Shown: positions 2 to 13,137 of the stretch, one piece after another
How the letters are laid out: every line of letters begins with the position of its first letter
Numbering within the stretch: the stretch's first letter is position 1
Virus record (IMG/VR): IMGVR_UViG_3300033141_005917
Span: 1 to 21,761 of that record
Length of the DNA stretch: 21,761 nt
Reading direction: 5' to 3' (one strand)
DNA from: a virus
The notes under the pieces: model-generated
What the model was told of the DNA's origin: nothing
The model's input: the letters and a program-made list of their open reading frames with translations, nothing else
Database searches by the model: none
Program-made: the position numbers and the translations under genes

Positions 2-1150
2 GTATATTATATTTGTGATTTTTGTGGTAAAGCCTTTTTTAATCATGAAAAAACTGAAATGCTTGCGCGCGGTAGATGGGAGCCGACTTCTAAAAGTTAT
101 TCAAGATCATTTAGGTCATATCATATTAGTTCTTTGTATAGTCCGATAGGAATGTTTTCATGGGAGGAACTTTGGGAGGAATACAGAAAGGCTCAAGAAG
201 ATCCTGATGGCTTGAGAGCTTTTGTAAATTTATCTTTAGGGATGCCATACAAAGAAGTTGGTTCACGGCCAGATTTAAAAAAAGTTATTGAACAGCGTGG
301 AAGTTATAGACAGAGCACTATTCCCCAGGGAGTTTTATTTTTAACAGCTGCTATAGATGTTCAACAAGGAAGTGAAACAGATACTGAGAATCCGCCAAGA
401 TTAGAAATGGAAATAATGGGACATGGTGCCGGATATAGATCATGGTCTATCTGTTATAAAAGATTTCCCGGTGAAATAGATGATCCTTATCAGGGAGCAT
501 GGGAAAAATTAAATCAGTATGCAGCGGATAGTAAATTACAATTCAAAAGATCTGACGGAAAAGGATTTGTTGTTGAATTGGTTTTCATAGATAGTGGTGA
601 TGGAAATTTTGTTGATGTCGTTTATAGATTTGCGAAAAGGTGGCGTAATACATTTCCGATTAAAGGTTTTGGTAGCTTAAAGAAACGGAAGCATGAAAAG
701 CAGGATGAAATAGATGAAGTTGGTCCAATGAACTTTAAAAGATACAGGGCTGTTAAAATTGGCGAAGGAAATATTTTATACGAGATTTCTACAAATTATT
801 ATAAAAATCATATATATAATAATCTAAAAGTTCAGCGCCTTCCATTAGATCCACAGAAACCAGGATTTTGTGATTTTCCTGTAGATTATGGTGAAAAGTA
901 TTTTAAGATGTTAACAGCTGAAGAAAAAAGAACTGACGGAAGTTTTTATTCAGGCGGTAGGAGAAATGAGGCATTGGATTGTAGAGTTTATGCAATGTGT
1001 GCCGGTGATGTTTATTTAGATGCAAAAGTTATGGAAGTAAAAGCAATGGCTAAAAGCAAGGGTGCTGATCCGGTTCAAATACAAAAATTAAATCATGCTG
1101 TAGTTTTACAAGAAATGACTAGGGTGATACTAAGAAGAAATACTAAATAA
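2..1150 (+). CDS. Phage terminase large subunit, lambda GpA family (5' partial)
   Basis: C-terminal part of the packaging motor. The reading frame is open to the window edge, and the 19 codons before the first ATG (nt 59) read like the family (CDFCGKAFF...EMLARGRWEP), so the true start lies upstream. The CxxC pair followed by the GRW motif is typical of GpA terminases. The nuclease half shows AIDVQ near nt 350-364, VFIDSGD near nt 580-600 and the C-terminal NEALDCRVYA near nt 965-995, which supply the acidic residues of the RNase H-like cleavage site. The Walker ATPase motifs must lie in the missing N-terminal part. About 380 codons are present, against some 600-650 for a full family member. 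The last 21 bases overlap the end of a leftward gene. Family knowledge predicts that it cuts concatemers and drives DNA into proheads through the portal. The small subunit is not in the window. Confidence 0.93.
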   Translation, partial: VYYICDFCGKAFFNHEKTEMLARGRWEPTSKSYSRSFRSYHISSLYSPIGMFSWEELWEEYRKAQEDPDGLRAFVNLSLGMPYKEVGSRPDLKKVIEQRGSYRQSTIPQGVLFLTAAIDVQQGSETDTENPPRLEMEIMGHGAGYRSWSICYKRFPGEIDDPYQGAWEKLNQYAADSKLQFKRSDGKGFVVELVFIDSGDGNFVDVVYRFAKRWRNTFPIKGFGSLKKRKHEKQDEIDEVGPMNFKRYRAVKIGEGNILYEISTNYYKNHIYNNLKVQRLPLDPQKPGFCDFPVDYGEKYFKMLTAEEKRTDGSFYSGGRRNEALDCRVYAMCAGDVYLDAKVMEVKAMAKSKGADPVQIQKLNHAVVLQEMTRVILRRNTK

Positions 1151-1516
1151 AATTATTATAGTTCCTACACTCAAACCACCTATACCAAAAATTATAGCTT
1201 TCCTATATTTAGCTTTCCATAATTTTTCACTAATCGTATTCGCTTCGGTAGATTTATCAAATTTACTATTCAAAATATTAATCTGATCATTTAAGAGCTT
1301 ATTCTCATTTTGATAAAATACATTATCAGATACTGGTATTTCGAAGTTGAGTTTGAAATAATTCAATTCAAGAATAAAAGCATCGTATTTTATTGTAATA
1401 GTCGTTCCGGCCGGAATATATATAAAATTAGAATTTATTTCAACTGTCTGACCGCATACAGTAATTGCAAAATGTAGAAGTAATAATAGAATGAGTATTA
1501 GTGTTTTTTTAATCAT
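1130..1516 (-). CDS. Candidate unimolecular spanin (u-spanin-like)
   Basis: A 128-residue protein with an N-terminal signal-like segment (KK, then about 15 hydrophobic residues) ending at Cys21 in ITVCGQ. A polar, probably beta-rich and partly helical ectodomain follows, and then a C-terminal hydrophobic segment at about residues 107-127. An outer-membrane lipoprotein signal at one end and an inner-membrane helix at the other is the architecture of phage T1 gp11-type u-spanins, which fuse the two membranes in the last step of lysis; the length (about 130) also fits. The weak point is the lipobox, because Val at -1 is atypical. It is the last gene of the leftward lysis island, overlaps the preceding gene by 8 bases and has its own AAGGGA site. 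Alternatively it could be an o-spanin partner or an unrelated exported protein. Function is inferred from architecture and context only. Confidence 0.6.
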   Translation of the reverse strand: MIKKTLILILLLLLHFAITVCGQTVEINSNFIYIPAGTTITIKYDAFILELNYFKLNFEIPVSDNVFYQNENKLLNDQINILNSKFDKSTEANTISEKLWKAKYRKAIIFGIGGLSVGTIIILFSISS

Positions 1517-1787
1517 GGTATTTATCCCTTAGATAATCAATGAATTTATCTTGTGGCATAACGGTAATCTTTTCAGACGATTCTTTCCTATCAGACTGTA
1601 TTTTCTTTATTTTTTTATCATTCTCAATATATAATATATTCAATTCTGATATTTCATTATTTAGCCGTAAAATTTCCTGTTTGTAGTAATAAGCTTTTCT
1701 GTGTTTGATCATTGAATAGCCAAAGGTTATTAAAAGCAAAATAAATAATATTAGAAGTATTGTATTCTTAAGATTTTTTAACTTCAT
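1509..1787 (-). CDS. Small membrane-anchored coiled-coil protein (i-spanin/Rz-like)
   Basis: A 92-residue protein with a short basic N-terminus, one transmembrane helix at about residues 9-27, and a charged heptad-like region at about 33-75 rich in Glu, Lys, Asn and Ile. The topology (N-in anchor with a periplasmic coiled coil) is that of Rz-type inner-membrane spanins. It overlaps the upstream holin-like gene by 20 bases and the downstream spanin-like gene by 8 bases, so the three are probably translationally coupled. An AAGGAA site lies about nine bases before the ATG. It could pair with the 128-residue protein as i-spanin plus o-spanin. If that protein is a true u-spanin, this gene must have another role, for example as an antiholin or lysis regulator. 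No conserved family motif was recognised. Confidence 0.55.
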   Translation of the reverse strand: MKLKNLKNTILLILFILLLITFGYSMIKHRKAYYYKQEILRLNNEISELNILYIENDKKIKKIQSDRKESSEKITVMPQDKFIDYLRDKYHD

Positions 1788-2076
1788 CTTTAGTTATTCC
1801 TTTTTTTATTGCACTGACTACTATTTTTGCAGAATCTTTAATTTTTGTAGTTATATAAGCCAGGCATATTGCCCCGAAGGTTTTTATCAAGAAATCATAG
1901 AAATCCTTATCAATATTAATTATATCTATTCCTAATTCATTCCTTGTTGGAATAATTCTTATTATTGTAACTCCGGTTAGAATGAACAGTGAAATTGCAA
2001 AGGCCAATCTTGTTAATGAGAATTCGCCATCTGATTTATGGCTTATTGCATATAAAAATCCTTTTTTGTTCTTCAT
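1768..2076 (-). CDS. Holin-like small membrane protein
   Basis: A 102-residue protein with a strong hydrophobic helix at about residues 23-42, a weaker second one at about 60-78, and a Lys-rich C-terminal tail (DEVKKS). Small size, two membrane segments, a charged tail and the place immediately after the endolysin are the usual marks of a phage holin, which makes the inner-membrane lesions that release or activate the endolysin. The ATG is preceded by a GGAAGG site, and only two bases separate it from the endolysin stop. I recognise no specific holin family, so the assignment rests on topology and neighbourhood. It could instead be an antiholin, with the 123/114-residue protein upstream as the holin. 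Confidence 0.6.
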   Translation of the reverse strand: MKNKKGFLYAISHKSDGEFSLTRLAFAISLFILTGVTIIRIIPTRNELGIDIINIDKDFYDFLIKTFGAICLAYITTKIKDSAKIVVSAIKKGITKDEVKKS

Positions 2077-2078
2077 TG

Positions 2079-2684
2079 TTATCCTTCCATATATTTTTTA
2101 GCTCTATCAAAATATTTTAAATCATTAGACGATATTATACGTAAAAGTGAGTTAGCATAATTTGAATCTGTTGCATATTTTTGTTCATCATCTTGTAAGT
2201 TTAGAATAGCCTCTTCAACTGATACTGATTCGACAACATCTTTAAACCATGGAGCTGAATACAAGACTTTGATATAATCTTTTATACTCGCATCAACTGA
2301 ACTATAAGCTCTGAAAGAATGTACTTCTGAGCTTACAATTTTATCCCTTTCTTCTTTTGTCATTATAGCAATGGATTTTCCTTTCCAGCCAATAGATTTA
2401 ATTCCATAAAGGGTTGATGCGTTTTTATTCCATCCGCTTTCAAGAGCTGCTTGGGCAATGGCCATGCTTGGAAATATTTTTGTTCCGACACAGTATAACA
2501 TTATTTTTACACCAATAGTAGATAAGAATTCATTTACGTGTGTATGTTTAGATGTAGGTATTGGATTTCTATTAGAAAATGAGGCGAAATCTTTAATGTT
2601 GGTTTTAGTTGCAGTAACTATCTTTTTTGGCTTAATCCATTGGTTGATAAGTATAAATAAGATTTTTAATATAGATTGAATCAT
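2079..2684 (-). CDS. Endolysin, glucosaminidase-type (GH73/FlgJ-like)
   Basis: A 201-residue peptidoglycan hydrolase. Residues 76-85 (AIAQAALESG) carry the Glu82 expected as catalytic acid in GH73 N-acetylglucosaminidases. The family signatures LYGIK (92-96), W100-KG, FRAYSSVDASIKDY (124-137) and KYATDSNYANSLLRII (169-184) follow in the usual order. Residues 1-17 are hydrophobic (IQSILKILFILINQW) and look like an uncleaved signal-anchor, which would deliver the enzyme to the periplasm as a SAR-type or membrane-tethered endolysin; that is inferred. The start has an excellent AGGAGGGG site and overlaps the upstream stop in TAATG. It sits second in the leftward lysis island, before the holin-like gene. 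It would cleave the glycan backbone to lyse the host; a virion-associated role is less likely from the context. Confidence 0.88.
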   Translation of the reverse strand: MIQSILKILFILINQWIKPKKIVTATKTNIKDFASFSNRNPIPTSKHTHVNEFLSTIGVKIMLYCVGTKIFPSMAIAQAALESGWNKNASTLYGIKSIGWKGKSIAIMTKEERDKIVSSEVHSFRAYSSVDASIKDYIKVLYSAPWFKDVVESVSVEEAILNLQDDEQKYATDSNYANSLLRIISSNDLKYFDRAKKYMEG

Positions 2685-3028
2685 TATTTTCCCCTCCTGG
2701 TATTTAGATCATTTTTATATAATTCTCTTAAACCTGAAAACGCATTATTTAATTTATCATGAGATGATTGTAGTTTTTGAAATTCTGTCCAAGATGTTAA
2801 TTCTAGTTTCATTTCTGTTTTTACTAATTTTAGTTTCAATTCTATAGCCTTTTCAATTTCTTCAGAATGAGTTTTTAGTGATTTTCCAATTTCTTTAGAA
2901 TGAATAGTTAAAGCTACTTTTATATCATCAGCGTATTTCTTAATAGATATATATATTACTCTTGCTAAAATGCCAATTAGGCCTGAAATGACGGTTGAAA
3001 CGATTATGAGGATTATTTTTTCTTTCAT
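2684..3028 (-). CDS. N-terminal membrane anchor with long helical domain, first gene of lysis island
   Basis: A 114-residue protein from the ATG at nt 3028. A nine-codon longer form could start at a TTG at nt 3055, but I see no ribosome site before it. One transmembrane helix at about residues 5-27 (IILIIVSTVISGLIGILARV) is followed by a long charged segment that reads as amphipathic helix or coiled coil, with two similar units, IHSKEIGKSLK and THSEEIEKAIE, in tandem. The C-terminus is very basic (NTRRGK). It leads the leftward lysis genes, directly after a predicted promoter, and its stop overlaps the endolysin start. Position suggests a role in lysis timing or membrane disruption (holin, antiholin or XhlA-like partner), but no family was recognised, so function is open. 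Confidence 0.6.
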   Translation of the reverse strand: MKEKIILIIVSTVISGLIGILARVIYISIKKYADDIKVALTIHSKEIGKSLKTHSEEIEKAIELKLKLVKTEMKLELTSWTEFQKLQSSHDKLNNAFSGLRELYKNDLNTRRGK

Positions 3029-3038
3029 GGTAAAATAC

Positions 3039-3067
3039 TTGATTTTTATATACAAACATAGTATATT
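3039..3067 (+). promoter_or_regulatory. Predicted sigma70-type promoter for the rightward head operon
   Basis: TTGATT (3039-3044) and TATATT (3062-3067) are separated by 17 bases and lie about 35 bases before the gpW-like start. A perfect TATAAT also occurs at 3073-3078, without a good -35. The interval is so A/T-rich that chance matches are common; the 17-base spacing and the divergent gene layout raise the likelihood. Phage late promoters may need a phage activator, and no such site was recognised. Confidence 0.45.
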
Positions 3068-3101: not shown

Positions 3102-3389
3102 ATGAGTTTACTTTCTAGTTATAGAAAACAACAACTATTGGCGCGGCATGCAAGGAAGGTAGTAGTTTTAGAAAAGCTTTATGATGCAATTGATGCCGCT
3201 GCAATAGCTCAAAAATCTTATAAATTTGATAGTGGTGAAGGTTCACAGTCAGCTATTTATAGAGATATTGAAGATCTACAAAAAACTATAGATAGTGTGG
3301 AAGCTCAGATTGATTGGATTCAGGGTAAACTATGTGGTACCGGTTTGGTGAATTTTGTATTAAGAAGGAAACAGCATAATTACTTATGA
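3102..3389 (+). CDS. Head-tail joining protein, gpW-like
   Basis: A 95-residue protein just before the portal gene. The segment at about residues 40-75 (YKFDSGEGSQSAIYRDIEDLQKTIDSVEAQI) fits the gpW pattern of a short beta hairpin followed by a helix built on I/LxxLxxxI. The N-terminal half is helical and basic. In lambda, gpW lies between terminase and portal and fills the portal channel after packaging; here the lysis island separates it from terminase. The start follows an AAGGAAAG site, and its stop overlaps the portal start in ATGA. Similarity is short, so the family call is moderate; another small neck or portal-adjacent protein is possible. Confidence 0.6.
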   Translation: MSLLSSYRKQQLLARHARKVVVLEKLYDAIDAAAIAQKSYKFDSGEGSQSAIYRDIEDLQKTIDSVEAQIDWIQGKLCGTGLVNFVLRRKQHNYL

Positions 3390-5005
3390 ATGAAAAAAAA
3401 GGTATATTAAATTTTTTCTTCCCTGGAAAAAAAGAATCAGTAAAAGAAATAGTAAATGAGATTAATACTAATCAGCCACGGGCATCATATACTTTACCGG
3501 GGGCTGGTTATTCAGGTCGTTCCGGTGGTGCTAAATGGCGTGGTGGTCTTTCAGCTTCTGGGCAAAGAACAATTTTAAATCATAAAATCCTTAGACAAAA
3601 TGCGCGGTCGGCTTATCATGAAACTCCAATAGCAAGAGCGTTTGTTGATAGATTTACTGATAGCGTTGTTGATGTTGGATTAATGGTAGAACCAATTCCA
3701 AAAGCAGATGTTTTAGGAATAACAGATGAACAAGCTGAAGAATGGGGTGAAAAGGTAGCAAGCGGATTTGATAGTTGGGCCAGAACAAAAGCACAGAATA
3801 GATCTAGAAGAATGACATTTTATCAATCACAAAAATTATATAGTACAGGACAGCAAAGAGACGGTGAAAATTTTGTCAGATTGTTTTATTCAAGGGATCG
3901 TAAATTAATTAATCCATTACAATTTGATTTCTTAGAACCTGATCAGATAAAAGGTAATGCTAGAACAACAAGCTATGGATTTACAAATGATTATGATGGA
4001 ATTGTAAGAGATTCAAGCGGTGTTGAAAAGTCTTATAAAATTTGGGTTAGAGATCAATCAAGTTTAGAAAAACCTTTTAAGGAAGTTACGGTTCCAGCTG
4101 TTGGTTCAAAATCAGGAAGAATATTTATGCTTCATGGATTTTCTTTAGAATATGCAGGTCAAACCAGAGGGTATAGTAGATTGGCGCATGCCTTACAAGA
4201 TTTTGAAAATCTTACAGATTTTTCATCAGCTCAGATAAAAAAAGCAATAGCGCAAAGTAATATTTCAATGTATGTAAAGCCAAGCCAGGATAAACCAGCA
4301 TCTAATCCTATGGAAGGAATGTTATCTAATGGTGGTGCTGGTCCTGTTGTTGAACAATTTGGAAGCAACCCAACTCCGTCAGCCGAAGCCGTTAATACTC
4401 CAAATGTAAGTTATCAACCTCTTCCAGAAGCTACAATAGATACTCCCGGAAGTGTTGGTTTTTTTAATTTAAATAGCGGTGAGGATTTATTGCCATTTAA
4501 AAGCACCGCTCCCGGTGAAAGTTACGATAGGTTTGTAGATACATTTGTTACACATCTTGCGGCGTCTATATCTATTCCTATTGAAGTTGTTTTAATGAAA
4601 TTTAATCAAAATTATTCAGCATCAAGAGCATCATTAATTTTATTTTGGAGAGTAGCGAATATTTGGCGTGAAGATATGGCCTCTGATTATTTAAACCCTG
4701 TTTATGAATCTTATATTGCTGAAGAAATTGCAGCCGGAAGATTATCGGCGCCAGGGTGGCAAGATCCTAGAATGAAAGCAGCTTGGTTAAATAATAGATG
4801 GATCGGTGCTCCTATGCCAAATATTGATCCACAAAGAACGGCAAACGCTGACAAGATACATGTTGAAATGGGTTTACAAACTTTAGATAGAACAGCACGA
4901 AACCATAATGGGTCATCTGGCAAGTCAAATAGAACAAAGTTAAAGAGAGAGTTAAAAGATTTGCCAGTTCCACCATGGAGTAAAGGAAATGGGGTAAAAA
5001 AATAA
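3386..5005 (+). CDS. Portal protein, lambda GpB family
   Basis: A 539-residue portal, the twelve-subunit ring through which DNA enters and leaves the head. Family marks include the ARSAYHETPIARAFVDRF segment near residues 72-92, the DGENFVRLFYSRD block near 158-172, LEPDQIKG near 185, and FNQNYSASRASLILFWR near 403-420, corresponding to the conserved sySsaRa motif. The Gly-rich N-terminus and basic C-terminus (KGNGVKK) are typical, and the length matches the lambda family. It overlaps the gpW-like gene by four bases and the next gene by one. In lambda-type phages the capsid protease follows immediately; here more than 3 kb of accessory genes intervene. Confidence 0.95.
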   Translation: MNEKKGILNFFFPGKKESVKEIVNEINTNQPRASYTLPGAGYSGRSGGAKWRGGLSASGQRTILNHKILRQNARSAYHETPIARAFVDRFTDSVVDVGLMVEPIPKADVLGITDEQAEEWGEKVASGFDSWARTKAQNRSRRMTFYQSQKLYSTGQQRDGENFVRLFYSRDRKLINPLQFDFLEPDQIKGNARTTSYGFTNDYDGIVRDSSGVEKSYKIWVRDQSSLEKPFKEVTVPAVGSKSGRIFMLHGFSLEYAGQTRGYSRLAHALQDFENLTDFSSAQIKKAIAQSNISMYVKPSQDKPASNPMEGMLSNGGAGPVVEQFGSNPTPSAEAVNTPNVSYQPLPEATIDTPGSVGFFNLNSGEDLLPFKSTAPGESYDRFVDTFVTHLAASISIPIEVVLMKFNQNYSASRASLILFWRVANIWREDMASDYLNPVYESYIAEEIAAGRLSAPGWQDPRMKAAWLNNRWIGAPMPNIDPQRTANADKIHVEMGLQTLDRTARNHNGSSGKSNRTKLKRELKDLPVPPWSKGNGVKK

Positions 5006-5265
5006 TGGCTAATCCAGAATTAATTGATTGTCTTGTAGATACATGGACTAAAGTTGCATCGAATGTAACGATGGGGAATGTTTGGAAAAAAAATTCATTA
5101 GCTGAATATTATCAAACATATAGAACGGCCGGGGCTGATGCCCCCACTAATCGTGAAGATGGTGTTGTTTTCAATGATTTAATGATTCCAATTTCTGCCC
5201 AAGCTGGTATAGATGTTTATATTTATTGTCATGGACAAGACGGAAAAGTGAGAGTTGATTTATGA
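5005..5265 (+). CDS. 86-residue virion-like protein, copy A of a paralogous pair
   Basis: Small protein of unknown function. It aligns end to end without gaps with the protein at 6997-7257, also 86 residues, with 37 identical positions. Shared residues include Cys9, Trp14-Thr15, AEYY (33-36), PT (47-48), D-x-YI-x-C (70-75) and the terminal GKVRVDL. Alternating hydrophobic residues suggest a compact beta fold. The start overlaps the portal stop in TAATG, and its own stop overlaps the next gene in ATGA, an arrangement repeated exactly in copy B. No family was recognised. Position among virion genes suggests a head accessory, fibre or adaptor protein; this is inference. Confidence 0.8.
   Translation: MANPELIDCLVDTWTKVASNVTMGNVWKKNSLAEYYQTYRTAGADAPTNREDGVVFNDLMIPISAQAGIDVYIYCHGQDGKVRVDL
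5245..5265 (+). repeat. Diverged repeat, copy A gene end
   Basis: These 21 bases match nt 7237-7257 at 18 positions. They encode the last six codons plus stop of the two 86-residue paralogues. All three differences fall at third codon positions and are silent, so the protein end is conserved while the DNA drifts. Confidence 0.75.
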
Positions 5266-5828
5266 TATGTGAAGTCATTGGCAATAAACCTCTTTATGGA
5301 AATGGTGGAGGGGGTGGCGGAGCTAAGGACGATCAGATAATTGATATATCTGCTGGTGCTTTTGATTACCCGGAAGTTTCTTTTGCCCCTTTGAATAAAG
5401 ACATATTAGCTAACGGTCAAATATTAGAACAATGGGCACAGGATACTGAAATTCAAAAAGTATTAGATGGAAATAGAAGGTTATATGATGATATTGATTT
5501 AACTGGCACAGTTACATTTGAGGTTGCTGTAAAAGCAGAGACCGCTCCAGCTGCTAATAAATCAGTCGTTCATGAATATTTACATAGCCATTCAGAAAAT
5601 GGTTTTTCAGTAGACCAACCTTTTGTAATCGTATCTAGTGGGGCAAAAATTATCGGAACTGTTGTTAAGGGTATATATATACATTCTTGGACGCAAACTA
5701 TAGAAACCCTTGGATGGAAAAAATCAGGGTTTTTAAGATCTGGAGTACAGAGGAATCCCGCACCGCCAGATGATTTGGTTGATCGTTTAGGTTATTTACA
5801 TTTAAGAATAAGGATTCCAAGGGCTTAG
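5262..5828 (+). CDS. Putative virion surface/fibre-type protein, 188 residues
   Basis: The N-terminal 30 residues hold a Gly run (about residues 16-20), then comes a region with alternating hydrophobic residues (DLTGTVTFEVAVKAE near 87-101). The C-terminal part ends in RLGYLHLRIRIPRA. The middle-to-end pattern of beta strands, a tryptophan in GIYIHSWTQT and a late Arg/Asp-rich loop (RSGVQRNPAPPDD) resembles the jelly-roll-like domains found in phage structural proteins, but no family can be named. It starts inside the stop of the 86-residue protein (ATGA) and probably depends on it for translation, which suggests a functional pair. Only one base separates it from the LamG-like gene that follows. 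Confidence 0.7.
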   Translation: MICEVIGNKPLYGNGGGGGGAKDDQIIDISAGAFDYPEVSFAPLNKDILANGQILEQWAQDTEIQKVLDGNRRLYDDIDLTGTVTFEVAVKAETAPAANKSVVHEYLHSHSENGFSVDQPFVIVSSGAKIIGTVVKGIYIHSWTQTIETLGWKKSGFLRSGVQRNPAPPDDLVDRLGYLHLRIRIPRA

Positions 5829-5829
5829 A

Positions 5830-6528
5830 ATGGCATTAACTTTCGATAGAACAAGTGATGAATATGCAGTTGTGCCTGACCATGTGGATTTAGATGGTGT
5901 GTCTGCTTTTTCTTTTTCTTTTTGGTTGAGATTGCCGGATGTTACAACGGTAGTCTCTTATTCTATTGTTAGAAAATATAACGGGTCTACACAGCCTTAT
6001 ACTATCAGGTTCGACGGGTCTGTTTCCGGGGCAAGATTGCTGTTTGGATTAACAGCTGGGGGGTCCGGTGCAAATTTTATAAGCAATACTCTTGGTCAGT
6101 ATTTATCCACTAATAAATGGTATTTGATTACTTGTTCTTATAATGGTGTTGCTGGAAGAGTCAGAGCCTATTTCAATACTACCCTTGCAATAAGCGATGT
6201 AAAATTGGGAACTTTGGCTGCTAATAATGCTGATGTATATATAGGCAGATTAAATACTGCTTCAAGTGAAAATTTGACAGGCGGTTTATTCGATCTAAGA
6301 TATTATAAAAGAGAGTTATCATTTGAAGAAATACAGACTATATGTAATAGTCATGGTAATGACAATATAACTAGTTCTGGATTACGGTTGCCAATGAGTG
6401 AAAAGAATGATGGAGCTTTGGCAAGTGGTGCAAATTCTATAATAGATGTTAGTATTGGAAATAAACCGGCTACACCTTATAATAATCCCGTATATGTTCC
6501 TGCGCCTTTAAAAGTATTAAAAGGATAA
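5830..6528 (+). CDS. LamG/concanavalin-like jelly-roll protein
   Basis: A 232-residue protein whose first about 180 residues follow the LamG-like (Laminin_G_3) pattern: FDRTSDEYAVVPDHVDLDG at the start, FSFSFWLRLPD near 27-37, the KWYLITCSYNGVAGRVRAYFN core near 96-115, DVYIGRLN near 135-142, and the closing GGLFDLRYYKRELSFEEIQTI near 151-171. This domain is a beta sandwich that often binds sugars and occurs in phage tail fibres and capsid decorations. The C-terminal about 50 residues are Pro- and Asn-rich. No signal peptide is present, consistent with a virion protein. It lies within the portal-to-protease accessory block. The inferred role is host-surface or glycan binding; whether it sits on the head or tail cannot be told from sequence. 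Confidence 0.82.
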   Translation: MALTFDRTSDEYAVVPDHVDLDGVSAFSFSFWLRLPDVTTVVSYSIVRKYNGSTQPYTIRFDGSVSGARLLFGLTAGGSGANFISNTLGQYLSTNKWYLITCSYNGVAGRVRAYFNTTLAISDVKLGTLAANNADVYIGRLNTASSENLTGGLFDLRYYKRELSFEEIQTICNSHGNDNITSSGLRLPMSEKNDGALASGANSIIDVSIGNKPATPYNNPVYVPAPLKVLKG

Positions 6529-6534
6529 AAAAAA

Positions 6535-6921
6535 ATGGCAAGTTTTACGAATTTGATTACATTGCAAGATTTAAGAAATGTCAAGACTTCTAAGTATATA
6601 GATAATCCTGATTATAAGGTTTGGAAGTCTGTCAGATACCCTGAAGGTTTAGTTTTACCAAAATGTGAAATTAAATATAGGAAAAGAGTAAATGATGATG
6701 TAGTTGAAATGACGGCGCATGAAAAATCAGAAAAGGATTCAGAAATTCAAGCTGTTATTGATGCTGCTTTGGCAGTACAAAAAGATATTACTCAAGCTGA
6801 TAAAATAATAAAGGCTCTTGCTTTTATTATTTTAGATGAATTAAATTTATTACGTACTAAAGCTGGTTTAGAGCCAAGGACAATAGAGACTTTAAAATTA
6901 GCTATAATAAGCAAATACTAA
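6535..6921 (+). CDS. Small helical protein of the accessory virion block
   Basis: A 128-residue protein. The N-terminal half is mixed and rich in Lys and Tyr. The segment at about residues 68-128 is helical: a Glu/Lys-rich stretch, an Ala-rich stretch, then ADKIIKALAFIILDELNLLR and KAGLEPRTIETLKLAIISKY. A final helix pair of the form LDExNxLRxxxGLxPRTxxxLKxAI is something I associate with small phage proteins next to fibre or host-contact genes, but I cannot name the family. It lies six bases after the LamG-like gene. It might be a chaperone or adaptor for its neighbours; that is inference from position. Confidence 0.7.
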   Translation: MASFTNLITLQDLRNVKTSKYIDNPDYKVWKSVRYPEGLVLPKCEIKYRKRVNDDVVEMTAHEKSEKDSEIQAVIDAALAVQKDITQADKIIKALAFIILDELNLLRTKAGLEPRTIETLKLAIISKY

Positions 6922-6996
6922 ATAGGGTAGAGTTATAAAATTATGGGAAGAATAAAAAATTGTATAAAGAAGATTGATAAGGGGGAAAGATAAAAA

Positions 6997-7257
6997 ATGC
7001 CTAATCCTATATATGTTAATTGTCCTGAAGGTGAGTGGACACCTGTGGCTATAGCTGTTAGAAATGGGGTTGTTCATGTGCAAAAATCTGATGCAGAATA
7101 TTATGAAACTTATAAAGTAACTGGTGATCCTGTCCCTACTTCCAAAGCTGAAGGTGTTAGGATGTTTCCTGCTGGTGGGATTATTTCGTGTTCTGAAAAG
7201 TGTGATATATATATTTGGTGTACCGGTTCATCCGGAAAGGTAAGAGTCGATTTATGA
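6997..7257 (+). CDS. 86-residue virion-like protein, copy B of a paralogous pair
   Basis: Second member of the 86-residue pair, with 37 of 86 positions identical to the protein at 5005-5265 and no gap. Copy B adds Cys65 and Cys69 to the shared Cys9 and Cys75, so disulfide or metal use could differ. A strong GGGGGAAAG ribosome site at 6981-6989 precedes the ATG. Its stop overlaps the next start in ATGA, as in copy A. The spacing and partner arrangement indicate that a two-gene unit (small protein plus larger partner) was duplicated, or acquired twice, and the partner then replaced. Function unknown. Confidence 0.8.
   Translation: MPNPIYVNCPEGEWTPVAIAVRNGVVHVQKSDAEYYETYKVTGDPVPTSKAEGVRMFPAGGIISCSEKCDIYIWCTGSSGKVRVDL
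7237..7257 (+). repeat. Diverged repeat, copy B gene end
   Basis: Counterpart of nt 5245-5265, matching at 18 of 21 bases with only silent differences. It includes the ATGA start/stop overlap that couples the following gene. Confidence 0.75.
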
Positions 7258-8288
7258 AACAACCTATAGATCATATGATAGGCAATGCCGGTGATAGATT
7301 ACCGCAATTATGGGATCTTTTAGATTCAAGTGAAGCGGCTTTTGAAAGAACTGGATTTGAAAATCGTATTGATAGTACAATATCATTTGATAAAGAAACA
7401 AAAACTTTCACTATAAAACCTACAGCTGAATTATATAATATATTTATTAATTCAGTAAAAGAAACTAAAAGAGCTGTAGAAACTATAGCTATTGATGATG
7501 TTGAAGGTATCTGGTTTATTTATTTTGATCTTGATTTTGTAATACAGAGAACTCAAATATTTACCAATGATATAATCACAAAATTTGTTTTAATAAAAAT
7601 ATTATATTGGGATTCAACTAATAAACAGTTATTGTTAGATGAACCATTAGAAGAAAGGCACGGTTTGTCAATGCCGGGAATTACCCATTTAAGATGGCAT
7701 ACTAAATTTGGTGCTAATTTAACAGATGGTGCTGCGTTAAATTCAAATTTGGCTGATCAAACAGGGGCTCTAGATAGTCATGCTCAATTCGGAATAGATT
7801 CTGGTGTTTTTTATGATGAAGATTTGGAGCATATTTTAAATAGTCAGGTGGCTCCTGCTCTTAGTGATGTTCTTTATAAAACTGGAGTAAATGGTGATTG
7901 GAGATATAAACCACGTGATGTTTTTCCAGTTATAAGTTTTTCTGGTGGAAATGGGTTACTTGCATATAATGAGTTTACCGGTGGTGCTTGGCAGCAAACT
8001 GAGGTATCTAACGGTAGGTTTGTACTTGCTCATTGTTATTTGATAAATGGTGATACTAAGAAAATGGTTTTTATCCAAGGTGAAAATACATATCTTAATC
8101 AGGTTTCGGCACGTGAGGGCGCGGAAATCGAAATAGACAATATAAAATTAGATGGGTTACCTTCACCGGAAATGATTGCTATAGGAACTATTATATATCA
8201 AGTATCTACTTCTTATACTAATTCTATTAAAGCCAGAATAAGAACAACAGATACTGGTAATGATTATGTTGATTTCAGAACTTTATGA
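7254..8288 (+). CDS. Putative fibre/spike-type virion protein, 344 residues
   Basis: I place the start at the ATG at nt 7254, inside the stop of the 86-residue protein (ATGA), rather than at an upstream start in the same frame at 7215, because copy A couples its partner the same way. The N-terminal about 60 residues are helical (RLPQLWDLLDSSEAAFERTG). The rest is beta-rich with repeated short strands such as KTFTIKPTAE, GIWFIYFDLDFVIQ, MPGITHLRWHTKFG and GRFVLAHCYLINGDTKKMVF. No enzymatic motif or signal peptide is seen. The overall look is that of a tail-fibre or head-fibre protein, but no family is recognised and there is no evident similarity to the copy A partner at 5262-5828. Last gene of the accessory block. 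Confidence 0.72.
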   Translation: MKQPIDHMIGNAGDRLPQLWDLLDSSEAAFERTGFENRIDSTISFDKETKTFTIKPTAELYNIFINSVKETKRAVETIAIDDVEGIWFIYFDLDFVIQRTQIFTNDIITKFVLIKILYWDSTNKQLLLDEPLEERHGLSMPGITHLRWHTKFGANLTDGAALNSNLADQTGALDSHAQFGIDSGVFYDEDLEHILNSQVAPALSDVLYKTGVNGDWRYKPRDVFPVISFSGGNGLLAYNEFTGGAWQQTEVSNGRFVLAHCYLINGDTKKMVFIQGENTYLNQVSAREGAEIEIDNIKLDGLPSPEMIAIGTIIYQVSTSYTNSIKARIRTTDTGNDYVDFRTL

Positions 8289-8302
8289 TATGATTACGAC
8301 AT

Positions 8303-8334
8303 GTGAAAAAAAAAATATTTTTTTTTATTTTCAC
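8303..8334 (+). terminator. A/T hairpin, possible terminator between accessory block and head genes
   Basis: GTGAAAA (8303-8309) pairs with TTTTCAC (8328-8334), and the A-run and T-run between them extend the stem. A long T-run lies in the right arm. It is G/C-poor, so it is not a classical intrinsic terminator; it may act bidirectionally, insulate the following promoter, or mark an insertion boundary. Confidence 0.35.
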
Positions 8335-8363
8335 TTTACATTTAGATAAATATTTGTTATATT
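8335..8363 (+). promoter_or_regulatory. Predicted sigma70-type promoter of the protease-capsid operon
   Basis: TTTACA (8335-8340) and TATATT (8358-8363) with 17-base spacing lie just after the hairpin and just before the protease ATG at 8374. Transcription would begin near nt 8370, giving almost no leader, although an AAGG site sits at 8364-8367. This is one of the longest spacers among the rightward genes (85 bases), which supports a regulatory role. Confidence 0.5.
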
Positions 8364-8373
8364 AAGGCTAATT

Positions 8374-9702
8374 ATGAAACAAATAGTTGCAATAGAAAAA
8401 TTTTTTGCTATTCAGTACATGGACAAAATCGAAAGTGCAAAAGCTGAAGATCGGAAGGCTGCTCTTGATTTGTTTGGTAATGTTGTAAAAGGTGAAAATA
8501 TTTTAACTATTGATGGTGATTCAGCTCATATTGAAATTGTTGGTCCAATGAGTCAGGATGGGCCAAGTCCGATTGCGGTATATTTTGGATTTAAAGGTAC
8601 AAGCTATCTCAAGATTAGAGAGGCTATTGAAGAAGTAAAAGCAAATCAAAATATAAAAAATGTTTACTTGGAAATGGATACTCCTGGTGGATACGTTAAA
8701 GGTGTTGATGAAGTTTGGCAGGCTGTAAAAGAGCTTTCCAGTCAAAAACATGTAGTGGCTGTTAATAATGGATTGATAGCATCAGGTGGATATTATATAG
8801 CTTCGGCTGCAAATAAAATTATATCAAGATCCCCAATGAATGAAACTGGATCAGTAGGTGTTTTAATTATTGGAACAGATTGGTCAAAGTGGGAAGAAGA
8901 ACACGGGATAAAGACAATAACTATAAAATCTAAAAACGCAAAAAACAAAGCTCCTGATATTGGCGATAAAGAAGGAAGAGATATATTACAGGAAAATGTC
9001 GATGCTATAGAACGTGTTTTTATTGATAGAATTTCAAGTGGTCGTGGTATTTCTTCTGAAGCTGTTATTAAAAAATTTGGAAACGGTAAAACTTTTATAG
9101 CCAAAGATCCTGATGGTGATATTGAAGATGCTTTATCTATAGGAATGATAGATAGTATTGAGAAGTTAGAAGATACGGAAAAAAAAAATAGAGGTGGTAG
9201 TTTTTCAGATGATAATTCTGATTCTTCTGCTTCATCTAGTAAAGATAAATCAGAAAAAAATAAAGGAAAATTTGTGGAGGTAGGAACAATGAATTTTGAC
9301 AAACTTATTGCGGAAACTCAAGGACTTGGAGAGTATATAAAGTCCCTTGAAAAAGAGGCTCATAAAAAAGGTCTTGAAGAGGCGAATGATGCAAATAATA
9401 AAAGGATTGAAGCGGCATCAAAATATTTAGGAAATAAAGATTATCCTGAAAGCATAAGTAATATGGCTAAAGATGTTTTAATTGGGAAAACAGAGTTTTC
9501 CATTCTTACCGGAACTGTAGGGGCTTATGATGCCATTACAGAGAAGGAAAAATCTGAAGCAGCAGCAGCTGAATCGTCCGATGCTGGTGATACGCCACCT
9601 GCCGAACCTGAGACCGGATCTGAAAATGGGGTAATAAATACTGAAGAAGACTATCAGAAAACTATTGCAGAAGATAGAAAAAAAACTAATGGGGGTGCAT
9701 AA
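8374..9702 (+). CDS. S49-family prohead protease with C-terminal scaffold domain (lambda gpC-like)
   Basis: A 442-residue capsid maturation protease related to SppA. The DTPGG motif (102-106) precedes IASGGYYIAS, in which Ser137 is the expected nucleophile, and NETGSVGV follows at 156-163. The general-base lysine should be Lys190 or Lys192 in the KSKNAKNK stretch, some 53-55 residues after the serine as in SppA-type enzymes. After about residue 270 comes a Ser/Asp/Lys-rich linker, then a helical and finally Ala/Glu/Pro-rich domain that fits a scaffold. A strong internal start at Met306 would yield that domain alone, as for lambda C and Nu3. It would process portal and scaffold inside the prohead. 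AAGG lies six bases before the ATG. Confidence 0.93.
   Translation: MKQIVAIEKFFAIQYMDKIESAKAEDRKAALDLFGNVVKGENILTIDGDSAHIEIVGPMSQDGPSPIAVYFGFKGTSYLKIREAIEEVKANQNIKNVYLEMDTPGGYVKGVDEVWQAVKELSSQKHVVAVNNGLIASGGYYIASAANKIISRSPMNETGSVGVLIIGTDWSKWEEEHGIKTITIKSKNAKNKAPDIGDKEGRDILQENVDAIERVFIDRISSGRGISSEAVIKKFGNGKTFIAKDPDGDIEDALSIGMIDSIEKLEDTEKKNRGGSFSDDNSDSSASSSKDKSEKNKGKFVEVGTMNFDKLIAETQGLGEYIKSLEKEAHKKGLEEANDANNKRIEAASKYLGNKDYPESISNMAKDVLIGKTEFSILTGTVGAYDAITEKEKSEAAAAESSDAGDTPPAEPETGSENGVINTEEDYQKTIAEDRKKTNGGA
9289..9702 (+). CDS. Nested in-frame scaffold protein (Nu3-like)
   Basis: An internal ATG at nt 9289, in the frame of the protease, is preceded by a near-perfect GGAGG at 9276-9280 with eight bases between. 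It would make a 137-residue protein beginning MNFDKLIAETQGLGEY, with an amphipathic helical N-terminal part and an acidic, Ala/Pro/Glu-rich tail, the composition expected of a capsid scaffold. In lambda the scaffold Nu3 is produced exactly this way from the 3' end of the protease gene C. The ribosome site lies inside a protein-coding stretch directly after a low-complexity linker, so selection for internal initiation is the simplest explanation. Product length and action are inferred by analogy. Confidence 0.78.
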   Translation: MNFDKLIAETQGLGEYIKSLEKEAHKKGLEEANDANNKRIEAASKYLGNKDYPESISNMAKDVLIGKTEFSILTGTVGAYDAITEKEKSEAAAAESSDAGDTPPAEPETGSENGVINTEEDYQKTIAEDRKKTNGGA

Positions 9703-11400: not shown

Positions 11401-11949
11401 GTGAACGAATTGGAAAAAATATTTTGGTTAAAAAAAGGTGTTATTAAAGTTGGCGATAAAAAAATAAAGACCGGTGATCCTATTCCTGTTGAGAAGGTTG
11501 GTAAAAAAACCTTAGAAATGTGGAAGAAGAATGGATGGGCCGGTTCAAAAATTGTTGTTAAATCTGCCAATGAAAATGAAGCGCTCAAATTGAAAATTAA
11601 CGATTTACAGAAACAGATTGTTTCTTTGAAAGAAAATGGGTCGAATCCTGAAGAAGTTCTTCAGCTCAAAGATGAGTTGTCTGATCTCAAGGATGCAAAT
11701 GAACGGGAAGTATCTGAACTCAAAGAAGAACTCCAGAATGTTAATGAAGCAAACGGAAAGATTGTGGAATCAAATCAGAGTTTGGTCGATGAAGTTGCAT
11801 TGTTAAAAGATGGATTGTCTGAAGAAGAGGCCTATAAAAAGGTTAATCAGGAAAATAAAGTCTTGATTAAGGCGGTTACTGCAAAGGACAATAAAATTGA
11901 TGGTCTTTCAAAGAGAATTGAGAAGCTTATAAAAAAGCAAGGTAGATAA
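11401..11949 (+). CDS. Coiled-coil head-associated protein (GTG start)
   Basis: A 182-residue protein starting at GTG, with AAGGAAAAG just before it. Residues 1-55 form a small conserved-looking domain (FWLKKGVIKVGDKKIKTGDPIPVE...WKKNGWAG), of the kind often found directly after capsid genes. Residues 60-180 are a nearly uninterrupted coiled coil, with heptads of Leu, Ile and Val among Glu, Lys and Asn (for example LKDELSDLKDANEREVSELK). It occupies the place of lambda FI, which stimulates DNA packaging and is also helical and charged, but no sequence similarity is evident. Role in packaging, capsid assembly or neck formation is possible. Codon use matches the neighbours. Confidence 0.72.
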   Translation: MNELEKIFWLKKGVIKVGDKKIKTGDPIPVEKVGKKTLEMWKKNGWAGSKIVVKSANENEALKLKINDLQKQIVSLKENGSNPEEVLQLKDELSDLKDANEREVSELKEELQNVNEANGKIVESNQSLVDEVALLKDGLSEEEAYKKVNQENKVLIKAVTAKDNKIDGLSKRIEKLIKKQGR

Positions 11950-11951
11950 TC

Positions 11952-12086
11952 ATGGCCAAAGAAAAAAAAGTTACCAAAGAAAGAAAAGCCACAAAGTATA
12001 TTGGTGGCCGGGCTATAAATGTCGATCTTAAAGAAATCGAAAAAAAGCCTGCTAGTGGAAATGGAGGGTCGGGATCTAATAAATAA
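11952..12086 (+). CDS. Small basic protein, 44 residues
   Basis: A short gene beginning MAKEKKVTKERKATKYIGGR and ending PASGNGGSGSNK. It starts two bases after the stop of the coiled-coil gene, has a possible AGGT site before the ATG, and ends 14 bases before the next start, filling an interval that would otherwise be an unusually long gap in this compact operon. The Lys-rich N-terminus and Gly/Ser tail suggest a flexible, nucleic-acid- or capsid-contacting peptide; this is inference. I recognise no family. The tight packing is the main evidence that it is real. Confidence 0.6.
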   Translation: MAKEKKVTKERKATKYIGGRAINVDLKEIEKKPASGNGGSGSNK

Positions 12087-12100
12087 GATCCTTAAAATCA

Positions 12101-12496
12101 ATGACTAATCTTAGAGAATTAGCCGAAGAAGATTTAGCCGTATCTTTAGAAGGGGATTTTGGTTTACCCGTAATTCTTAAAGGTCCAAATGGCTTTACAA
12201 TCTCAACCAAAAAAGGAACAACTGATCCGCTAATGGGGCAGATTCTCTATGATATAGTCAGGATGAACCCGGAGACCGGTGAGGATATGGAAGTTAACGA
12301 ACCCGTAATTACTCTTCGCCGGTCAAGTCTTGAGAGGATTCCGAAGCCTGGGGAAAATTGGTTTGTTGAAATTCCAATTGAGCCTAAAGTTGATGGTGAA
12401 AAAAAAAGTTTTATAATTAGTGGATCAAGAACCTCGGATGGTGGCGGTTCACTCGGAATAATACGATTATTTTTGAGGAAAGTCGAACAGAAATGA
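12101..12496 (+). CDS. Head completion/connector protein (lambda FII-like position and features)
   Basis: A 131-residue protein beginning MTNLRELAEEDL, with a beta-rich core: LPVILKGPNGFTIST, VNEPVITLRRSSLERIPKPGENWFVEIPIEP and SLGIIRLFLRKVEQK at the end. The RRSSLxxxPxPGENW stretch and the final hydrophobic strand are what I would expect of a gpFII-type or related head-tail connector, which forms the ring where the tail docks. It lies between the capsid genes and the tail terminator, the standard neck position. Four bases overlap the next gene. The assignment combines a weak motif match with synteny. Confidence 0.62.
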   Translation: MTNLRELAEEDLAVSLEGDFGLPVILKGPNGFTISTKKGTTDPLMGQILYDIVRMNPETGEDMEVNEPVITLRRSSLERIPKPGENWFVEIPIEPKVDGEKKSFIISGSRTSDGGGSLGIIRLFLRKVEQK

Positions 12497-13137
12497 TGAA
12501 TTTCAGAAAAATAAAAGAAAGTCTTGTTGAATTACTTGGAAGTAAAGCTGCTGGTAGATTTAAGGTTATCGGCTATCAGAAACAGATTAAAAATGCCTCA
12601 GAGACTGAAGGGAATAATAGAGCTGTTGAAATTTTTTATTCAGATGGTGATATGCCTAAAAAGGGTAGTAGTCTTACTGGTCCTATAGATCATGATATGG
12701 AATTTAAATTAGAATTTACAGTTTCCGCTCAAGCAAAAGCTGATCTTGTAGTTCTTGAAAATCCTGGTTCCACTACTGCTGAAGTTGAAACGGCTCTTGC
12801 GGAATTGCAAGTTGCTACAAAAATTGCAGATGATTCTATAGATGAATTATGGGAGTTAGTTTATCAGATTCTTATGGATGCTTTAGAAGTAGGTCTTGGA
12901 TTGCTTGATGAAGATGGAAAAGAAAATGTTGTTCAAAATAGATGGGTAGGTGAATTTAGAAAAGATACCGCCCAACCAAAAGGTGAACTTGTTATTTTAA
13001 CAGCAAGTGCTAAATATACTTGTAGAACTGATGAAGAAATAACAGGCGATACGGTTACTTCTGGCGAAGTTATGGATACTACTTTAAACCAGGATGATGA
13101 TAAAGAAAATATTGCAGGAACAAGGGAGGAGTTATAA
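12493..13137 (+). CDS. Probable tail terminator/tail completion protein
   Basis: A 214-residue protein. The N-terminal helix (FRKIKESLVELLGSKAAGRF) followed by a beta strand with VIGYQK, a middle strand EFKLEFTVSAQAKADL, an Ala/Glu-rich helix and a later NRWVGEFRKDTAQPKGELVILTASAKYTCRTDEEITG fits the alpha/beta layout of tail terminators, which cap the finished tail and dock to the head. The acidic C-terminus (LNQDDDKENIAG) is probably flexible. It sits just before the sheath, the usual place. It could instead be a gpZ/gpJ-like neck protein. The start ATGATG overlaps the previous stop, and its stop overlaps the sheath start in TAATG. Confidence 0.6.
   Translation: MMNFRKIKESLVELLGSKAAGRFKVIGYQKQIKNASETEGNNRAVEIFYSDGDMPKKGSSLTGPIDHDMEFKLEFTVSAQAKADLVVLENPGSTTAEVETALAELQVATKIADDSIDELWELVYQILMDALEVGLGLLDEDGKENVVQNRWVGEFRKDTAQPKGELVILTASAKYTCRTDEEITGDTVTSGEVMDTTLNQDDDKENIAGTREEL

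Follow-up and report, generated by a model that had tools for sequence, protein, structure and literature searches.

Which function is served by the six open reading frames (ORFs) that lie between the portal and the head maturation protease genes of the virus record IMGVR_UViG_3300033141_005917? The stretch analyzed here (the window, positions 1 to 21,761 of the record) is a 21.8-kb fragment of an uncultured virus, in which the gene order is of the contractile-tail type (by inspection) and Mu-like baseplate domains were found. A preliminary description of this DNA had read two of the six genes as copies of a constant small adaptor, each followed by a swapped partner, which together would display fibres. 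Comparative genomics strongly supports this reading. We consider it rather probable that the small protein is the base and the partner the fibre of a base-plus-plug system like that of the gene transfer agent RcGTA, most likely placed on the capsid.

The two small genes, s1 (5005-5265, + strand, first copy) and s2 (6997-7257, +), encode 86-residue proteins that are identical at 37 of 86 positions without a gap (BLASTP E=4e-22). The s1 stop overlaps the start of p1 (188 residues, 5262-5828, +) and the s2 stop that of p2 (344 residues, 7254-8288, +), in both cases by ATGA (5262-5265 and 7254-7257). The partners p1 and p2 are not similar to each other. In all these respects, and in the count of six intervening genes, the preliminary description was correct.

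A small-protein family downstream of the portal gene

Direct searches were uninformative. Nothing convincing was found for s1, s2, p1 or p2 in Pfam or PHROGs, or for s1 and p2 in the PDB, and p1 had no match in phages. A tblastn search of cultured phages with s1, s2 and two other members of the family described below, and one of plasmids with a single member, gave no match. Viral contigs scanned with s1 or s2 alone, or with a two-row alignment, also gave no match, the short patterns being too specific.

The family was reached via the portal protein, which identified about 20 relatives in viral contigs (46-72% identity); a search of their ORFs revealed the small protein in most of these contigs, encoded right behind the portal gene. 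A pattern built from five members added further records. After removal of duplicates, 31 further distinct records with a readable small gene remained (cited below by L numbers), which together with the two copies of the window make 33 units. The small protein thus appears to define an undescribed family, absent by these searches from Pfam, PHROGs, PDB and cultured phages. Its consensus reads MADPVxVxCPxDxWTKVATNVxxG...YxxTYRxTGxxAPT...ISAxAxIDVYI...GxAGxVRVDL. An AlphaFold2 model of s1, based on a 16-sequence alignment, is all-beta (pLDDT 91.1).

One member is from a bacterial metagenome-assembled genome (SM23_31), so the family is not restricted to virus collections; no further member was found in six genomes from the same phylum, which were searched for a host. 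Two other candidates were rejected. L062, from an uncultured proteobacterium, was a weak match that the profile did not confirm. Flavobacterium phage FCL-2 binds mucin and likewise carries several small genes in its portal-protease gap, but the small family does not match this phage; its ORF17, with an immunoglobulin fold, has been published as a neighbour of one peptidase gene and two genes for hypothetical proteins, close to the portal and capsid genes, and has no link to the small family.

The position of the small gene is highly conserved. Its start lies between -52 and +13 bases from the portal stop in 28 of the 31 records, and it is nearly always the first gene after the portal gene, with one gene in between in L005 and L023. 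In the minimal arrangement, the block consists of portal, small gene, partner and protease (L004, L038, L039, L041, L044, L045, L052, L058). The placement among head genes, which had been noted for the window, therefore holds across the family.

When 22 other records were searched whole, the family was found in 20 of them, in exactly one copy each, and among the records examined the window alone has two. The preliminary description had seen a duplicated two-gene unit in this. Two units of small gene and partner do exist, but their origin by tandem duplication is not established by the sequence comparisons: the score of s1 against s2 (about 58 bits) is lower than the scores of either against proteins of other phages (s1 with L017, 73.9, and with L008, 72.7; s2 with L007, 81.3). 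In a tree the two copies were placed apart with weak support, and their pairing was not rejected (p-AU 0.27). The second copy may stem from an old duplication, or it may have come with a base-fibre cassette taken up from another phage.

Translational coupling of small gene and partner

A partner directly follows the small gene in 29 of the 33 units, so that the small protein is not one found mostly without a coupled partner. The partner start overlaps the small-gene stop in 26 units, by ATGA or GTGA (-4), TAATG (-1) or -8, and lies +1 to +9 past the stop in three more. L060 shows a -4 overlap too, with the protease gene rather than with a partner.

The overlap region suggests how the partner is translated. 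The C-terminus GxVRVD of the small protein is conserved across the family, and the bases coding for VRVD, inside the small gene, are likely to be the ribosome-binding site of the partner. The arginine codon in this stretch is AGG or AGA in 22 of the 26 coupled cases, compared with 36% in the corresponding portal genes; in L005 and L014, where the partner start is more distant, it is CGC. Within the 3' end of s1, the Shine-Dalgarno-like GTGAGAG (5248-5254, +) is located 7 bases upstream of the p1 start, and TAAGAG (7241-7246, +) is found within the 3' end of s2. The last 21 coding bases of the two genes, GGAAAAGTGAGAGTTGATTTA and GGAAAGGTAAGAGTCGATTTA, differ by three bases, all at silent third positions, as had been noticed before. 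We attribute this to the conservation of GxVRVD together with the likely ribosome-binding site of the partner in the same stretch.

Partner proteins and their N-termini

The partners belong to many unrelated families, and what they have in common is a short motif near the N-terminus. Within their first 25 residues, 28 of the 33 partners had the class [VIL]G[NPSDG]; the corresponding counts were 50 of 442 for control N-termini (Fisher 1e-19) and 31 of 208 for internal stretches. Counted by partner family, it was present in all members of 16 of 21 families (binomial 8e-12). The class was defined after inspection of the data, so the p-values overstate the certainty, but the effect is large nonetheless. 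The motif takes IGNG- or IGPG-like forms, usually with a single IGxG. In p1, IGN (residues 6-8, 5277-5285, +) is followed by YGNGGGGGG, and in p2 the motif is IGNA (residues 9-12, 7278-7289, +). Of the five units that lack the class, L010 and L060 have no partner, L003 is a fusion, L056 has a short gene of membrane type in this place, and the L022 partner has IGAE instead of a member of the class.

The body of p2 is fibre-like. Residues 33/34-342 are homologous to a domain within long fibre-like proteins, with 31% identity to a 1227-residue protein (L125), 28% to an 800-residue protein (L126) that adjoins a LamG protein, and 24% to a protein with GTSGTS repeats from a 735-kb phage (L124, LR756501.1). 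The first 33 residues of p2, with IGNA, are missing from these long relatives. Judged by its sequence, p2 is a composite of a plug-type N-terminus and a fibre-type body. The L124 protein has more than 2000 residues, mostly GTSGTS collagen-like repeats, and is encoded in one of the largest phage genomes.

Partner genes may also be stacked. Two motif-bearing genes in tandem were found in eight records (L005, L017, L019, L042, L047, L053, L054, L057). L047 can be compared with L041, to which it is about 90% identical in the portal gene and downstream DNA. In L047, an ATGA-coupled gene for a 154-residue protein with IGPGNG separates the small gene from the partner that L041 has as well, which by its sequence context would mean that one of these close relatives has gained (or lost) a fibre gene.

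Proposed base and fibre system

The RcGTA head spike is a two-protein system of the same logic, consisting of the base Rcc01079/GhsA (84 residues, PDB 6tb9) and the fibre Rcc01080/GhsB (PMC7296036). The base is a jelly-roll pentamer seated on pentamers of the capsid. It holds a single fibre, residues 2-10 of which (IALGLGLGL) send aliphatic side chains into pockets of the five base subunits, and the fibres attach to the host capsule (PMC7296036). The preliminary description, which could name no described system for the combination seen in the window, had therefore gone too far on this point.

In size, gene order, coupling and the glycine-plus-aliphatic N-terminus of the partner, the small family closely resembles the RcGTA system, and on these grounds we propose base and plug for it as well. 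We infer that the 86-residue protein forms an oligomeric base, or socket, on the virion and most likely on the capsid. The partner would be a fibre or adhesin (proposed fibre 1 for p1, proposed fibre 2 for p2), the Ile/Val-Gly-rich N-terminal peptide of which (IGNG, IGPG and similar) would plug directly into the base, whereas its variable body would stay exposed and bind host or environmental glycans. ATGA or TAATG coupling and the ribosome-binding site in the base gene would tie the amount of fibre to the amount of base. Any body bearing a plug could then be displayed, and fibre genes could be replaced, added in tandem or, as may have been the case in the window, arrive with a second copy of the base.

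If this proposal is true, a small gene after the portal gene with a coupled partner starting with IGxG would be a sequence rule by which accessory surface fibres could be located in uncultured phages, the host and environment binding of which is otherwise invisible. The plug would also be short enough to be tried as a tag for the display of proteins on phage capsids.

The common N-terminus also bears on a different role for the small protein. Constant small genes beside variable fibre genes often encode fibre assembly chaperones, and the small protein might likewise be an assembly factor rather than a virion component. Such chaperones are usually encoded downstream and act on C-terminal parts, whereas the small gene lies upstream of its partner, and the element common to the partners is their N-terminus. 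In L003, moreover, the small domain is naturally fused to a C-terminal partner-like region, the only such fusion. We regard a chaperone function as very improbable.

Several observations weigh against the base-plus-plug proposal. The small family and its partners are known from genes alone. In L010 and L060 the small gene directly precedes the protease gene and has no partner, and in L056 it is followed only by a short gene of membrane type. The bases of the two systems showed no relationship by sequence: an unfiltered hmmsearch yielded no meaningful match between the small family and the RcGTA base, the hhalign probability was 1%, and 6tb9 was not among the 50 PDB fold matches listed for the s1 model. 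The plug also differs, usually being a single IGxG in the small-family partners as compared to the repeated LG/IG of RcGTA. Signal-peptide-like sequences stand at the start of the L003 fusion (11582-12682; MKKKIIALSILFCVCFSLNAMA) and of the products of two genes further along the L007 block (6308-8085), which is odd for virion proteins assembled in the cytoplasm. Lysis or membrane genes occupy the same portal-protease gap in L012, L015-L018 and L022, so that position alone does not prove a structural role.

The last two of these observations would suit a gap that is a hotspot for accessory genes (morons, lysis genes, envelope proteins), with a pair that acts on the host cell and is not part of the virion. 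In the minimal cases, on the other hand, the gap holds nothing but the pair, the p2 body is a fibre-type module, and by inspection s1, s2, p1 and p2 of the window are without a signal peptide. An accessory pair of this kind is in our view improbable, if slightly less so than a chaperone.

Other features of the locus

The remaining genes of the window frame the two units. Profiles identified the portal gene upstream (3386-5005, +; PF05136, 3.2e-53; phrog_21, 5.6e-66), the S49/ClpP-type head maturation protease gene downstream (8374-9702, +; PF01343, 1.2e-19; phrog_53, 7e-52), and decoration-like and capsid genes. Between p1 and s2 lie the genes of a LamG/jelly-roll (concanavalin-like) protein (5830-6528, +) and of a 128-residue helical protein (6535-6921, +), the latter with no family match in Pfam or PHROGs. 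The LamG assignment made earlier was confirmed by PF13385 (7.9e-18), with 65.5 bits against a gathering cut-off of 27.6. This may be a further surface protein, and a LamG-like protein is also present in the L022 block (by inspection); the LamG and helical proteins are at most candidate members of the same display system.

The gap before the protease gene (8289-8373) is AT-rich and contains a near-palindrome, GTGAAAAAAAAAATATTTTTTTTTATTTTCAC, which may be a terminator or a processing site at the boundary between accessory block and head genes. ClpP-like protease genes were seen by inspection in the blocks of L019 (3345-4592), L020 (4887-6134) and L054 (6747-7781), besides or replacing the S49-like protease, which suggests that the maturation protease has been exchanged or duplicated in this phage group. 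A reverse-strand island of the window (1130-3055, -), between terminase and a gpW-like gene, is probably a lysis cassette, coding for a glucosaminidase (PF01832, 1.2e-20) and for small proteins of membrane type; in several relatives, the lysis genes sit between portal and protease instead.

Comparison with known systems

Fold comparisons placed s1 near other small proteins. Matches of the s1 model in the PDB were weak (none with E<=1e-3), and many were cupin-like (RmlC-type epimerases, HppE, the CENP-C cupin). As a control, a model of an RcGTA-type base, itself of moderate confidence (pLDDT 74), retrieved 6tb9 and also a CENP-C cupin chain. Cupin-like folds in both lists make a distant common fold of s1 and the RcGTA base possible, but no more. 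Homology of the two bases was considered, but neither the profile search nor the profile-profile comparison supported it; s1 and s2 have no PHROG match and thus none to PHROG 12296, the family of the phage bases homologous to that of RcGTA. Because the bases lack profile similarity and 6tb9 was not among the listed s1 matches, we do not class the small family as an RcGTA-type spike.

The best fold neighbours of s1 were small unnamed phage proteins, including a 95-residue protein of Pseudomonas phage tf (Foldseek, TM 0.62), which by length is tf_60. The proteins tf_60 and tf_61 are encoded by tandem, ATGA-overlapping paralogous genes of about this size near fibre genes; they differ in having no profile similarity to the small family, no coupled variable partner of the kind seen in the window and a different gene region. 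This neighbour, in a paralogue pair beside a tail-fibre gene, and the annotation of RcGTA-base relatives in other phages as 'tail fiber' (annotation only) would favour placing the pair on the tail, baseplate or neck, as fibre and adaptor with the same plug-and-socket logic. The portal-protease position, kept in nearly all records, is distant from the baseplate genes, and the solved systems of this anatomy found here are all capsid ones (RcGTA 6tb9; Carin1 8cjz_h). A tail or neck site is thus unlikely, though it deserves more weight than the chaperone or the accessory pair. In Carin1, a phage of Cobetia marina, chain h of 8cjz is a small protein annotated 'Spike Base Protein' in a mature capsid structure; it is matched by the RcGTA-type base model and not by the small family.

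The likeness of the proposed base-plus-plug arrangement to the RcGTA-type spikes extends beyond RcGTA itself. In RcapNL, RcapMu and Pben1, base genes homologous to that of RcGTA (PHROG 12296) overlap the downstream fibre genes, the products of which begin with MGLGLGIGLGL, MTGLPGCGMGGGG and MLIGLGIGIG, respectively. Both systems have an all-beta protein of about 85 residues as base or proposed base, a fibre or fibre-like gene directly downstream with an overlapping start (in these three phages), a glycine-plus-aliphatic N-terminal fibre peptide and a variable fibre body, and by analogy the peptide of the small-family partners would dock in the same manner. In the large Flavobacterium phage immuto (L067, 2489-4412), an RcGTA-type base gene comes right after the major capsid gene and is followed by a gene for a repetitive 546-residue protein starting MYIGLGIS, so that large Flavobacterium phages probably have head spikes like that of RcGTA.

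The systems differ in genomic position: the small gene lies between portal and protease, the RcGTA-type bases either at a locus of their own or where the tail genes end. The tandem arrangement of proposed fibre genes and the two small genes of the window further set the small-family system apart from RcGTA. We see an evenly balanced case for the broader view that uncultured contractile-tailed phages have a previously unrecognised capsid-display platform, with a new base family and a universal IGxG plug, on which unrelated fibre bodies would be gained, lost and stacked and several fibre types per virion may be possible, and which would be either independent of the RcGTA head spike or related to it beyond sequence recognition. 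If this is true, the base-plus-plug solution known from RcGTA also exists in a base family that looks unrelated, where it serves as a display platform with exchangeable parts.

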